Below are positions 11,721-15,620 of a DNA stretch of 64,000 nt, in pieces; position 1 is the first letter of the stretch, and every line of letters starts with the position of its first letter. The position numbers and the translations under genes were made by a program. The notes under the pieces were generated by a model. The model searched no databases. It saw nothing but the letters and a program-made list of their open reading frames with translations, and was not told the origin of the DNA. Where the stretch lies: positions 1 through 64,000 of the forward strand of contig JAQTZL010000012.1 in the NCBI GenBank assembly GCA_028687755.1. Direction: 5' to 3'. This DNA is from Candidatus Nanopelagicales bacterium (GTDB lineage Bacteria > Actinomycetota > Actinomycetes > S36-B12).

Positions 11721-12616
11721 TTAAAAGTCTTTCCTGTCAGCACTTCATACGCTTCAACATACTTCGCGCGCGTCTTTTCGATGATCTCTTCAGGCAATGC
11801 TGGAGGTGCTTCTCCGCTGTTCTTATCCCAGCCTGATGCAGGAGAAGTAAGCCAGTCGCGGACAAACTGCTTGTCATATGAAGGCTGCGGGCCACCTGGC
11901 GCCCATTTCTCTGCATCCCAGTAGCGAGATGAATCTGGGGTCAGCACTTCATCGGCCAACATAATTTTCCCAGCAAATCGACCTTGCTTAGCAATACCAA
12001 ATTCAAACTTCGTGTCAGCAAGAATCAAGCCGCAGTCAGCAGAAATTTCCGATGCACGTTCATACACCAGCAGCGAAAGACGCTTGAGCTCTTGCGCTTC
12101 TTCCTGACCAATCATGGTGATGACCTGATCGAAGTTGATGTTTTCATCATGATCGCCAACCGCGGCTTTGGTGGCCGGTGTGAAGATCACCTTTGGAAGA
12201 AGTGAGCCGTCTTTTAAACCTGGGGGCAGATTCACACCACTGATTGAACGCTTCTCTTGATATTCGATCAGCCCTGAGCCGGTGATGTAGCCGCGAACTA
12301 CACACTCCACCGGAAGCATGTCGAGATCTGCACACACCATTGCGCGTCCAGCAACCTGATCTGGCACCTTTCCCGGAGTGATGTGGTTGGGAACGATGTC
12401 TTCTAGCTGACGAAACCACCACAGCGAAAGCGCAGTAAGAATGCGGCCTTTGTCAGGAATCAATGACGGGAGTACGTAGTCGTACGCAGAGATGCGATCG
12501 CTTGCCACGAAGAGCAAACGACCTTCAGGGGTGCGGTAAAGATCGCGCACTTTGCCCGAATACACGTGCTCATACTCTGGAGGCAAGCCATAGTCGGTTG
12601 CTTCAATCGTGGTCAC
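11717..12616 (-). CDS. purC: Phosphoribosylaminoimidazole-succinocarboxamide synthase (SAICAR synthase)
   Basis: PurC joins aspartate to CAIR with ATP to form SAICAR. The 299-residue protein contains YSGKVRDLYRTPEGRLLFVAS at the N-terminus, the SAICAR signature PVECVVRGYITGSGLIEYQ near residue 102, and LADTKFEFGI near 200. Length matches the Gram-positive/yeast type. Its start overlaps the purB stop by four bases (12613-12616), giving the unit purB-purC-galE. Confidence 0.97.
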   Translation of the reverse strand: MTTIEATDYGLPPEYEHVYSGKVRDLYRTPEGRLLFVASDRISAYDYVLPSLIPDKGRILTALSLWWFRQLEDIVPNHITPGKVPDQVAGRAMVCADLDMLPVECVVRGYITGSGLIEYQEKRSISGVNLPPGLKDGSLLPKVIFTPATKAAVGDHDENINFDQVITMIGQEEAQELKRLSLLVYERASEISADCGLILADTKFEFGIAKQGRFAGKIMLADEVLTPDSSRYWDAEKWAPGGPQPSYDKQFVRDWLTSPASGWDKNSGEAPPALPEEIIEKTRAKYVEAYEVLTGKTFK

Positions 12617-14040
12617 AGAATGTCTCCAGGTGAGTAAGCGGCAGCAGCTGGATGCGCTGCAGCAATAACGGAAACTCGGTTAGCAATTGCTTGAACCTGA
12701 GCGCCGGCAGCGCCGGTGAATGCAAGTGGTTCAGCGATCAATGCGCGAAGTTCATCGATGGAAAGTTCCAAACGTGAGTCAGCTGCCAGCCGCTCAAGTA
12801 GGTCGTTCTCGCCAGCAACCTGTTCGCGCATGGAAAGTGCAACAGATACCGCATGCTCCTTAATGGCTTCGTGAGCAATCTCGCGGCCAACGCCCTTACG
12901 CACAGCAGCCATCAACACCTTTGTGGTGGAAAGGAATGGAAGATAGCGATCAAGTTCTCGATCAATGACAGCAGGGAACGCACCGAAGTCATCCAGCACG
13001 GTCAAGAAGGTCTCAAACAAGCCGTCGAGAGCAAAGCTCGCGTCAGGCAATGCGACGCGGCGCACGACAGAACACGCAACGTCACCTTCATTCCATTGAT
13101 TACCTGCGAGCTCTGAAGCCATCGTCATGTACCCGCGCAGTAACACGGTAAAGCCATTGACTCGTTCACATGAGCGTGAATTCATCTTGTGCGGCATAGC
13201 AGACGAACCAACCTGGCCTGGTCGGAAACCTTCAGTCACCAAATCAAGGCCGGCCATCAAACGAATAGTTGTTGCAAGGCTTGATGGACCAGCAGCAACT
13301 TCAACAAATGCAGAAAGCACATCGAAGTCGAGAGTGCGTGGATACACCTGACCAACACTGCTGAGTACCCGTTGGAATCCAAGGTGCGAGGCAACGCGTG
13401 ATTCAAGTTGTTCTAACTTCGCCGAATCACCGTCAAGTAAGTCGAGCATGTCTTGAGCCGTGCCCACTGGGCCCTTAATGCCACGCAGTGGGTAACGGCT
13501 GATCAAATCTTCGATGCGTTCGTACGCAATCAACATTTCATCTGCTGCCGATGCGAACCGCTTACCAAGCGTCGTGGTCTGCGCCGGAACGTTATGCGAG
13601 CGACCAGTAAGTGCTGTTTCCGAGTACTGCATAGCCAACGATGAAAGGCGCTGCAATGCTGCAACGGTCTTATCTCGAACAAGCAGCATTGAACTCATCA
13701 CTTGCAACTGCTCAACGTTTTCGGTGAGGTCGCGAGAGGTCATGCCTAGGTGAATGAGTTCGTGACCTGCAAGATCATTGAACTCTTCGATACGGGCCTT
13801 CACATCGTGCTTGGTCACGCGCTCGCGTGCGGAAATCGAATCAAGATCGACTGAATCGATGATGGCTTCATACGAGGCAATCGCATCGGCTGAAACATTC
13901 AAACCGAGTTCGGCCTGCGCCTTCATCACGGCAATCCAGAGCTGACGTTCCATGACGATCTTGGCCTCTGGGGACCAGATCTGGTTCATGGCTGCTGAGG
14001 CGTACCTACCAGCAAGGACATTGGGAATTGAGGCCGTCAC
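12613..14040 (-). CDS. purB: Adenylosuccinate lyase
   Basis: PurB removes fumarate from SAICAR and from adenylosuccinate, acting in both the main pathway and the AMP branch. The 475-residue protein has the fumarase/aspartase signature GSSAMPHKMNS near residue 280 and RSHNVPAQTTTLGKR near 150. GTG 14040 is chosen over an ATG 60 nt upstream because the protein then starts at the conserved SIPNVLAGRYAS region. It heads the purB-purC-galE unit and is preceded by a short gap containing DnaA-box-like sequences. Confidence 0.95.
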   Translation of the reverse strand: MTASIPNVLAGRYASAAMNQIWSPEAKIVMERQLWIAVMKAQAELGLNVSADAIASYEAIIDSVDLDSISARERVTKHDVKARIEEFNDLAGHELIHLGMTSRDLTENVEQLQVMSSMLLVRDKTVAALQRLSSLAMQYSETALTGRSHNVPAQTTTLGKRFASAADEMLIAYERIEDLISRYPLRGIKGPVGTAQDMLDLLDGDSAKLEQLESRVASHLGFQRVLSSVGQVYPRTLDFDVLSAFVEVAAGPSSLATTIRLMAGLDLVTEGFRPGQVGSSAMPHKMNSRSCERVNGFTVLLRGYMTMASELAGNQWNEGDVACSVVRRVALPDASFALDGLFETFLTVLDDFGAFPAVIDRELDRYLPFLSTTKVLMAAVRKGVGREIAHEAIKEHAVSVALSMREQVAGENDLLERLAADSRLELSIDELRALIAEPLAFTGAAGAQVQAIANRVSVIAAAHPAAAAYSPGDIL

Positions 14041-14064
14041 TGGTCCATTCTTCCACGCCGCAAG

Positions 14065-14101
14065 TTGTCCACAGGCCACACCGCGACCCGGGTTCTCCAC
14101 A
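14065..14101 (+). promoter_or_regulatory. Two DnaA-box-like 9-mers upstream of purB
   Basis: TTGTCCACA (14065-14073), the form preferred by high-GC actinobacteria, and TTCTCCACA (14093-14101, one mismatch) lie in the same orientation, starts 28 nt apart, in the gap between purB and the tRNA. They could bind DnaA or be chance matches; similar 9-mers also occur inside genes of this window. Confidence 0.3.
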
Positions 14102-14154
14102 GGTCACTCATCGAGCCTTTTCCTCACGGATATGGGTGCATATGGTCAAAGGGT

Positions 14155-14227
14155 GCCCCTGTAGCTCAAGGGATAGAGCTGACCTCTCACTCAGGTTCGG
14201 TTGCTGGTTCGAATCCAGTCAGGGGCA
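14155..14227 (+). tRNA. tRNA with an unusual anticodon loop (reads CAC; body resembles tRNA-Arg)
   Basis: A full cloverleaf of 73 nt can be drawn. The acceptor GCCCCTG pairs with CAGGGGC, the discriminator is A, the D-stem is GCTC/GAGC, and the T-arm is GCTGG-TTCGAAT-CCAGT. The best anticodon stem is GACCT/AGGTT with loop CTCACTC, giving anticodon CAC (valine codon GUG). Position 37 would then be U, which is very unusual. The acceptor and the D-loop (AAGGGATA) resemble actinobacterial tRNA-Arg rather than tRNA-Val. CCA is not encoded. Isotype is therefore uncertain; a degenerate or recombined tRNA is possible. Confidence 0.65.
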
Positions 14228-14233
14228 CAAAAC

Positions 14234-14267
14234 GTAGGACCCCCGTCGGCAAAGACGGGGGTCCTAC
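14234..14267. terminator. Strong hairpin terminator between the tRNA and purD
   Basis: A perfect 14-bp stem GTAGGACCCCCGTC / GACGGGGGTCCTAC encloses the loop GGCAAA. On the minus strand it is followed by ACGTTTTG, so it can end the purA-aminotransferase-purD transcript. On the plus strand it directly follows the tRNA, so it may act in both directions. Confidence 0.8.
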
Positions 14268-14360
14268 AAATGTTGTTCGGCTACTTGGTTTCCCAAAGTC
14301 GCTGACCTCTCACTACCCAAAGCCTACGACGAGGCTAACGAGCCAGTCAACGGCTGTGGA

Positions 14361-15620
14361 TTACTCCGAAGCGCGCTTGGCGATGTCACGGCGATGATGT
14401 GACCCAGCCAGCGAAATCAGATCAACACCGGCATATGCGCGCTCACGTGCTTGCGCCAACGAATCACCGACGGCAGTGACTGACAGCACGCGACCTCCTG
14501 CAGAAACTACATCGCCTTCATCAGTGATGCGCGTACCTGCATGAAGCACATCCACATCAAGAAGTGCATTGGCTTCTTCGAGACCAGAGATGACATCACC
14601 AGTGACCGGGGAGTCTGGGTAATTCTTGGATGCGACGACCACAGTCACCGCTGCACCTTCGCGCCATTCAAGTGGGGGCAGTTCAGCAACCTTGCCAGTT
14701 GCCGCAGCAAGCAGTACTTGACCAAGCGGTGACTTCAATCGTGCGAGCACCACTTGTGTTTCTGGATCACCGAAGCGCGCATTGAATTCAACAATGCGAA
14801 CACCGCGCTTGGTTAGCGCTAGGCCCGCGTACAACAAACCGACGAACGGTGTGCCACGACGACGCATTGCATCAACCATCGGTTGCAGCACAGAAGCTGT
14901 AACTTCTTCAACTAAACCAGCAGGCGCCCAAGGAAGCGGTGAATACGCACCCATTCCGCCGGTGTTTGGGCCTTCATCATCATCATGCGCGCGCTTGAAA
15001 TCTTGCGCTGGCTGCAACGCGATGATGTCGACACCATCGGTAATACCGAAGAGCGAAACTTCAGGACCATCGAGGTATTCCTCGACCAACACACTTGATG
15101 CGCCTTGCGCAAAACAATTGTCTGCGTGTTCAAGCGCTTGATGACGATCTGAAGTCACGATCACGCCCTTGCCTGCGGCAAGACCATCGTCCTTCACAAC
15201 ATATGGCTCGCCGAATTCATCGAGCGCTTTCGCAACTTCATCAAGAGTGGTGCACGAATGCGCCTGCGCCGTAGCGACGTTGGCTTCACTCATGACCTGC
15301 TTAGCAAAGGCCTTACTTCCTTCAAGCTGCGCAGCTTCCTTTGACGGACCAAAGCAAGCGATTCCACGCTCGCGAATTGCATCCGCTGCCCCTGCCACCA
15401 ATGGAACTTCAGGGCCGACAACTACGAGATCGGCTTTAGTATCGACAGCCAGTTGAGCGACAGCATCAGGATTCGATGCATCAACAGGAAGCACTTCAAC
15501 ATCAGCAGCGATACCAGCATTGCCTGGCGCACAAATTATCGAAGTAACTGCCTCATCGGCTCGTAGAGCGGTGACAAGCGCATGCTCACGTGCACCGGAA
15601 CCAATAACTAAAACGCGCAT
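14361..15620 (-). CDS. purD: Phosphoribosylamine-glycine ligase (GAR synthetase)
   Basis: PurD joins glycine to phosphoribosylamine with ATP, step two of purine synthesis. The 419-residue ATP-grasp enzyme starts MRVLVIGSGAREHAL and keeps PEVPLVAGAADAIRERG, the central grasp region GLAAGKGV, and the NARFGDPETQVVL motif near residue 290. Length is standard and no fusion partner (PurM or PurN) is present. It is the last gene of the purA unit and ends about 95 nt before the hairpin at 14234-14267. Confidence 0.97.
   Translation of the reverse strand: MRVLVIGSGAREHALVTALRADEAVTSIICAPGNAGIAADVEVLPVDASNPDAVAQLAVDTKADLVVVGPEVPLVAGAADAIRERGIACFGPSKEAAQLEGSKAFAKQVMSEANVATAQAHSCTTLDEVAKALDEFGEPYVVKDDGLAAGKGVIVTSDRHQALEHADNCFAQGASSVLVEEYLDGPEVSLFGITDGVDIIALQPAQDFKRAHDDDEGPNTGGMGAYSPLPWAPAGLVEEVTASVLQPMVDAMRRRGTPFVGLLYAGLALTKRGVRIVEFNARFGDPETQVVLARLKSPLGQVLLAAATGKVAELPPLEWREGAAVTVVVASKNYPDSPVTGDVISGLEEANALLDVDVLHAGTRITDEGDVVSAGGRVLSVTAVGDSLAQARERAYAGVDLISLAGSHHRRDIAKRASE

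Follow-up and report, generated by a model that had tools for sequence, protein, structure and literature searches.

A putative two-RNA module in which a predicted antisense RNA may mask the anticodon arm of an aberrant arginine-like tRNA

Antisense RNAs are known to act on messenger RNAs (mRNAs), on primers and on a small number of further RNA types, and in type VIII toxin-antitoxin systems, exemplified by SdsR-RyeA, both the toxin and the antitoxin are RNAs. Here we analyzed a 64,000-nucleotide (nt) stretch of DNA from a Candidatus Nanopelagicales bacterium (contig JAQTZL010000012.1, positions 1 to 64,000; hereafter the window), which carries at 14155-14228 a transfer RNA (tRNA) gene with an arginine-like body and a valine anticodon. 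Next to it, on the opposite strand, lies a predicted antisense small RNA (sRNA) whose 5′ end is complementary to the anticodon arm of the tRNA; this partner, which a preliminary description of the tRNA had missed, is the main finding of the present study. We propose that the two genes form a two-RNA module in which the antisense RNA masks the anticodon arm of the aberrant tRNA, a reading to which we assign a probability of about three in four on the strength of comparative sequence evidence.

The proposed module resembles type VIII pairs in that it consists of two small RNAs, one of which would silence the other, and in that it is compact and sporadic. Its anatomy, with the two RNAs encoded close together and transcription of the sRNA predicted, fits that class, and covariation supports the pairing by which the antitoxin RNA would neutralize the toxin RNA. 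In CreTA, another type VIII system, CreA acts on transcription via a CRISPR effector as far as the available account goes, whereas direct pairing with a tRNA anticodon arm is proposed here. The cis-encoded antisense systems RNAI/RNAII and hok-sok are similar in having an opposite-strand RNA, a 5′ toehold, hairpins and joint diversification, but their target is a primer or mRNA, while here it is a folded tRNA and the sRNA comes from a separate copy instead of the overlapping strand. The 3′ETS-leuZ sponge is a tRNA trailer that pairs with another RNA, and eight of the odd tRNAs studied here also have trailers with a complementary loop, although these would pair with the anticodon loop of the very tRNA that carries them. 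Frameshift and missense suppressor tRNAs likewise have an altered or enlarged anticodon loop; the present tRNAs differ in being natural, conserved and coupled to a predicted antisense RNA. Finally, tRNA-Other of Bacillus cereus is a pseudo-tRNA with a cellular role (PMC3399842) and, like the window gene, a predicted tRNA beyond the ordinary set, but the accessible part of that report mentions no antisense partner. No such tRNA/antisense module was found in searches of one open-access library, outside which most subscription journals lie. The nearest counterparts are type VIII pairs, plasmid antisense control and tRNA-trailer sponges, none of which targets the anticodon arm of a dedicated tRNA.

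ARAGORN called 14155-14228 on the plus strand as tRNA-Val(cac), and its D, anticodon and T arms form a cloverleaf that scores 55 bits against the Rfam tRNA family RF00005 (cut-off 29). The preliminary description had reported an arginine-like body with a CAC anticodon and U37, and this is borne out by the GGA D-loop (A20) and by the anticodon loop CTCACTC, which reads C34 A35 C36 U37. The same D-loop is shared by four ordinary tRNA-Arg of the genome; the sole further GGA D-loop is that of one Gln tRNA, whose match was read as out of register. All 42 other distinct tRNAs of the genome have a purine at nt 37 (A in 34, G in 8), which places the loop of the window tRNA out of line with the rest. 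The genome (2.5 Mb in 21 contigs) encodes a full ordinary tRNA set, and since this set includes three Val (CAC, GAC and TAC) and four Arg tRNAs (ACG, CCG, CCT and TCT) encoded elsewhere, the odd tRNA is a surplus gene. The features of the locus are as follows.

14155..14228, plus strand: odd tRNA gene, with arginine-like body, A20, A15/U48, anticodon CAC, U37 and A73; CCA not encoded
14178..14191, plus strand: tRNA nt 24-37 (5′ strand of the anticodon stem plus loop), complementary to the sRNA; exact 14-nt copy at 14301-14314
14234..14314, minus strand: predicted antisense sRNA of about 81 nt, read from 14314 to 14234; based on position and fold, with the same anatomy in relatives
14301..14314, minus strand: 5′ guide of the predicted sRNA, complement of tRNA nt 24-37; based on the 14-nt copy and on covariation over 26 modules
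14284..14298, minus strand: small GAAA-capped hairpin after the guide; based on sequence and fold
14233..14268, both strands: two-way intrinsic terminator common to tRNA and sRNA; found by terminator scan
14321..14326, minus strand: candidate -10 element of the sRNA, TAGGCT, 6 nt ahead of the guide; placed by eye
14345..14350, minus strand: candidate -35 element of the sRNA, TTGACT, 18 nt from the -10; TTGAC-N18 also in G006 and G028, TTGACA in G051
12613..14100, minus strand: purB (context), divergent from the tRNA; NCBIfam TIGR00928 above cut-off
14361..15620, minus strand: purD (context), convergent with the tRNA; NCBIfam TIGR00877 above cut-off

The copy of tRNA nt 24-37 lies about 73 base pairs (bp) downstream of the tRNA, past the two-way terminator. 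The predicted sRNA would start about 46 nt downstream of the purD stop and reads, from 5′ to 3′, guide, GAAA hairpin and terminator; its 5′ end is mostly free in the predicted folds of several members, though not of all. First-order resampling of the flanks (n=2000) gave a longest copy of 13 nt against the 14 observed, so that the repeat is not due to chance, and the core 12-mer of the guide has exactly two sites in the whole genome, the tRNA and the copy. A search of 14100-14400 against Rfam returned nothing but the tRNA at gathering score, and thus no known sRNA family.

The proposed pairing was tested across related modules. We aligned 26 modules over nt 27-37 of the tRNA, giving 286 cells (two genomes share one tRNA sequence; the alignment leaves aside G139, which is cut off by a contig edge, as well as the G419 odd tRNAs and the second odd tRNA of G207, for which no copy lies nearby). 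Despite differing sequences, 279 of the 286 cells can pair in the windows used (266 Watson-Crick and 13 G-U), and seven are mismatched. The 20 differences between tRNA and copy comprise 13 transitions by which a Watson-Crick pair becomes G-U, one transition of the reverse kind and six transversions; RNA pairing accounts for this bias (13 of 14 transitions, p=0.0009), whereas a DNA repeat offers no reason for it. In the orthologous modules of G148, G158 and G164b, sites 29, 31 and 32 change in tRNA and sRNA and still pair, while the 3′ strand of the tRNA stem stays as it is, so that some of these tRNAs can no longer form 29:41 and 31:39 within their own stem; pairing with the sRNA was retained even where the cloverleaf suffered. 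Predicted duplexes among 11 distinct modules averaged -28.5 kcal/mol for cognate and -13.3 kcal/mol for non-cognate partners; the cognate partner gave the best duplex in all 11 rows and in 10 of the 11 columns, and none of 100000 permutations did as well. Within the four multi-copy genomes, the cognate ranked first in 12 of 13 rows, including 6 of the 7 rows of G273. We regard RNA-RNA pairing as very probably the selected feature of these modules.

Complementary runs by themselves are less telling. Among 78 ordinary tRNAs used as a control, runs that tolerate G-U ranged from 6 to 13; the single run of 13 came from L179, which was itself recognized as an odd module, and with runs of 11-12 in seven others, nothing can be concluded from a run of 9-12 by itself. 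The modules with runs of 8-12 (G134, G154, G273a, G006, G152 and G164a) rest also on the position of the copy at the start of a terminator-ended unit, and for G154, where a chance same-strand run of 11 outranks the sRNA run of 9, the sRNA place was used in the pairing table. As a further control, five of the eight loci from a scan of named genomes were ordinary tRNAs of other phyla without the repeat.

The distribution of the module was examined with three patterns, and A20 was part of the pattern for most relatives, the exception being the first scan. In the order, a pattern imposing A35, C36 and U/G37 (NAC-U/G37) matched 16 sites, spread over 14 of 166 genomes, and all 16 sites show the GGA D-loop that this pattern does not impose. 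A second pattern (A20 and not-C35, nt 36-37 free) found 15 places, namely 14 odd tRNAs and one ordinary tRNA-Phe, and A35, C36 and U/G37 are kept in 14 of these 14 odd tRNAs. In the class, of which 394 genomes were evenly drawn as an incomplete sample, a search for A20 with ACK matched nine genomes, six of them in another family (f31). Relatives with similar tRNA/sRNA pairs belong to three families of the class, and some genomes hold two to seven; G273 (f31) holds at least seven, further modules having been found nearby. Across f31 loci L185-L194 (for example in G273), the pairs are largely insulated by sequence, and the tRNA at 9543-9617 of L185 has the same loop, CTCACTC, as that of the window. 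A recognizable opposite-strand copy within 600 nt accompanies 25 of 31 distinct cellular odd tRNAs, some judged by position in addition to run length; it lies upstream or downstream of the tRNA at varying distance. In the initial comparison of 15 sRNAs, every one had a terminator hairpin at its end.

In G006, whose PurD is 98% identical, the anticodon arm differs and the copy has changed along with it, and the promoter-guide layout of the window sRNA recurs in G006, in G028 and, in another family, in G051. In G028 the module sits between purD and an aminotransferase-like gene, and in G008 and G005 the purB-purD interval is without the module. In G004 (locus L002/L077), tRNA nt 1-38 are fused to the sequence beyond the copy, which we read from the sequence as a deletion between the repeats by which both RNAs were lost in one event. 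The sRNAs of L171 and L145 are antisense to the D arm too (about 26 nt in L171 and 15 of 16 nt in L145, counted by eye), which suggests that the sRNA may have originated by inverted duplication of the 5′ half of the tRNA.

In the accessible part of PMC9976931, bacterial arginine identity is given as A20, C35 and U/G36 and valine identity as A35, C36 and A73. By that account the D-loop of the window tRNA provides the arginine determinant A20 within an arginine-like body, the elements C35 and U/G36 are replaced by A35 and C36, and A35, C36 and A73 make up all the valine elements. In 14 of 14 odd tRNAs, C and U/G sit one position 3′ (36 and 37) of the arginine sites, with U/G37 in place of the A37 of ordinary tRNA-Val in the genome; nt 73 is T or G in some relatives, and ARAGORN calls four-base anticodons in some. 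While nt 26-33 drift, A20, A35, C36 and U/G37 stay constant, a contrast that points to the anticodon as the part under selection. Of the explanations first offered for the odd combination, an altered identity was in the right direction, insofar as an A20 body with NAC-U/G37 is kept in 14 of 14. A misread fold is not favored, because 31:39 pairs in the window gene, as it does in 42 of 42 other distinct tRNAs of the genome; yet 31:39 is mispaired in 12 of the 26 aligned modules, where a 9-nt loop is possible.

A second way of covering the anticodon loop was found in the trailers. Of 30 odd tRNAs tested, 8 have a trailer with 5-7 nt complementary to the anticodon loop of the same tRNA; this stretch follows the tRNA at a distance of 22-25 nt, in what we read as the loop of the terminator hairpin (TAACGA/TCGTTA, TCACGA/TCGTGA, TGACGA/TCGTCA and TGACTA/TAGTCA). 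The window tRNA is without this form. Three of the eight form the cluster of G419 (L189, 8370-10062), in which three odd tRNAs lie within 1.7 kb, with ARAGORN anticodons 'aacg', 'cacg' and 'aac'; no antisense RNA was found near this cluster, though all three trailers have such anti-anticodon loops. A near-copy elsewhere in G419 (L182) lies, by eye, in coding-like sequence and was not taken as an sRNA. Two routes to the same end, sRNA and trailer loop, argue that covering the anticodon loop is the purpose of both.

In the proposed module, the first gene would be an extra, arginine-like aberrant tRNA (A20 body, NAC anticodon, U/G37) and the second, on the opposite strand, would yield a short antisense RNA that pairs through its 5′ end with the anticodon loop and the adjoining 5′ stem strand. 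The sRNA would first meet the exposed anticodon loop and from there displace the stem pairing along its 5′ strand, opening the arm and blocking decoding, perhaps also charging or maturation. That the sRNA silences the tRNA in this way is probable; that the tRNA is harmful when free is a more tentative proposition, to which we give somewhat less than even odds. Once the antisense RNA is gone, a stable miscoding tRNA could act by placing Arg at Val codons or by shifted or frameshifting reading of N-A-C-U/G, with a shifted 9-nt loop as an alternative route to disturbed translation. The likeliest function would be that of an RNA-only device, either toxin-antitoxin-like or serving regulated mistranslation. 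The sequences themselves show the pair and how it covaries, is insulated and recurs, whereas transcription, binding in the cell, silencing, charging and toxicity are what we infer from them.

Speculatively, and with rather more doubt than confidence, these modules may represent an RNA-only toxin-antitoxin or self-sabotage defense family with a tRNA as the toxin. The loop N-A-C-U/G could be read doubly: NAC reads Val codons, and C-U/G, one base on, is what arginyl-tRNA synthetase checks in a normal tRNA-Arg. Such a tRNA would poison translation by placing Arg at Val codons, or by a frame shift, unless the sRNA or a trailer anti-loop masked its loop, and several insulated pairs per genome would diversify in the manner of addiction modules or abortive-infection switches. 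An antisense partner that is conserved, insulated and directed at a dedicated tRNA would amount to a new kind of control over the adaptor of the genetic code. It would also explain why certain genomes retain tRNAs whose anticodon loops look 'impossible' and which are annotated as Val or '???'.

Several observations weigh against the proposed module. Six of the 31 odd tRNAs are without a nearby sRNA: one is at a contig edge, four have a trailer anti-loop (the three of G419 and a fourth, in L172, whose similar trailer loop was placed partly by eye), and one has neither. Within the order the module is sporadic (14 of 166 genomes), which, with the loss by deletion in G004, indicates that it is not essential. 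A scan with the sigma-70 consensus called no promoter at the candidate -35 and -10 elements of the sRNA. By the identity elements given above, U73 in several relatives misfits valine and A35 misfits normal arginine identity. As for the pairing table, the paired fraction is inflated by the choice of the 26 windows for best pairing, the wobble-direction test is less affected, though a G-U-tolerant choice of windows may favor the bias somewhat, and the rows are related modules whose counts are not independent events.

Among other explanations, the one that survives best is that the gene encodes a normal, conditionally needed tRNA (a Val isoacceptor or a special Arg tRNA) tuned by an antisense RNA without any toxicity. 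Its A35 and C36 agree with bacterial valine identity as given in PMC9976931 and its fold is conserved, but the Val and Arg sets are complete without the odd gene, U/G37 replaces the A37 of ordinary tRNA-Val, T73 or G73 occurs in some relatives, and a sporadic, multi-copy distribution with insulated pairs is not what a normal tRNA would lead one to expect; we consider this explanation unlikely. It is less probable still that the sRNA is a real regulator of mRNAs elsewhere, with the odd tRNA as its sponge or decoy. tRNA-derived sponges exist in E. coli, and the module is of small size and has no constant neighboring genes; against this, the genome offers the guide 12-mer no further site (exact matches only, with G-U or shorter targets outside the search), the guides diverge yet follow their own tRNA, and the tRNA keeps its acceptor and T arms, A20 and NAC-U/G37, none of which a sponge would need.

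A duplicated attachment site, in which a small integrated element or its remnant would have used the anticodon arm as recombinase core, was set aside as very improbable. Anticodon arms are common as attachment-site cores, a direct repeat flanks about 110 bp here, and G004 resembles the recombined form. What decided against it was the wobble bias together with an anatomy that is conserved and resembles a transcript: the copy starts a terminator-ended, transcript-like unit on either side of the tRNA at varying distances, the 13:1 excess of changes that keep G-U pairing is a preference not expected of DNA recombination, and the window interval 14228-14301, between the neighbors purB and purD, holds the terminator alone and no recombinase gene. 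Finally, a degenerate pseudogene with a chance repeat, which the odd loop and the many relatives without the gene might suggest, has a negligible probability (a pseudogene had also been considered in the preliminary description), since relatives keep the fold and a co-varying partner RNA, the wobble bias and recurrence in three families speak against decay, and the chance repeat was rejected by the resamplings, the covariation and the ordinary-tRNA control.

Viral contigs gave no matches to the strict pattern; a looser pattern matched 19 contigs, in which no opposite-strand copy exceeded background (best 11), and phage records yielded tRNA-length matches only. Five viral loci (L156, L157, L163, L164 and L167) carry phage-type tRNAs with A20, the loop Y-U-A-A-C-G-A and C31/A39, called Val(aac). 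In L157 and L163, 14-nt same-strand complements of the anticodon arm lie nearby; they were not counted, the L163 unit ending in an apparent tRNA remnant beside a recombinase-like open reading frame. In assembly G000, contigs C5 and C8 carry tRNA clusters that are the same in order and score (Glu-Asp-Phe, Lys, Thr), which suggests redundancy in that assembly.
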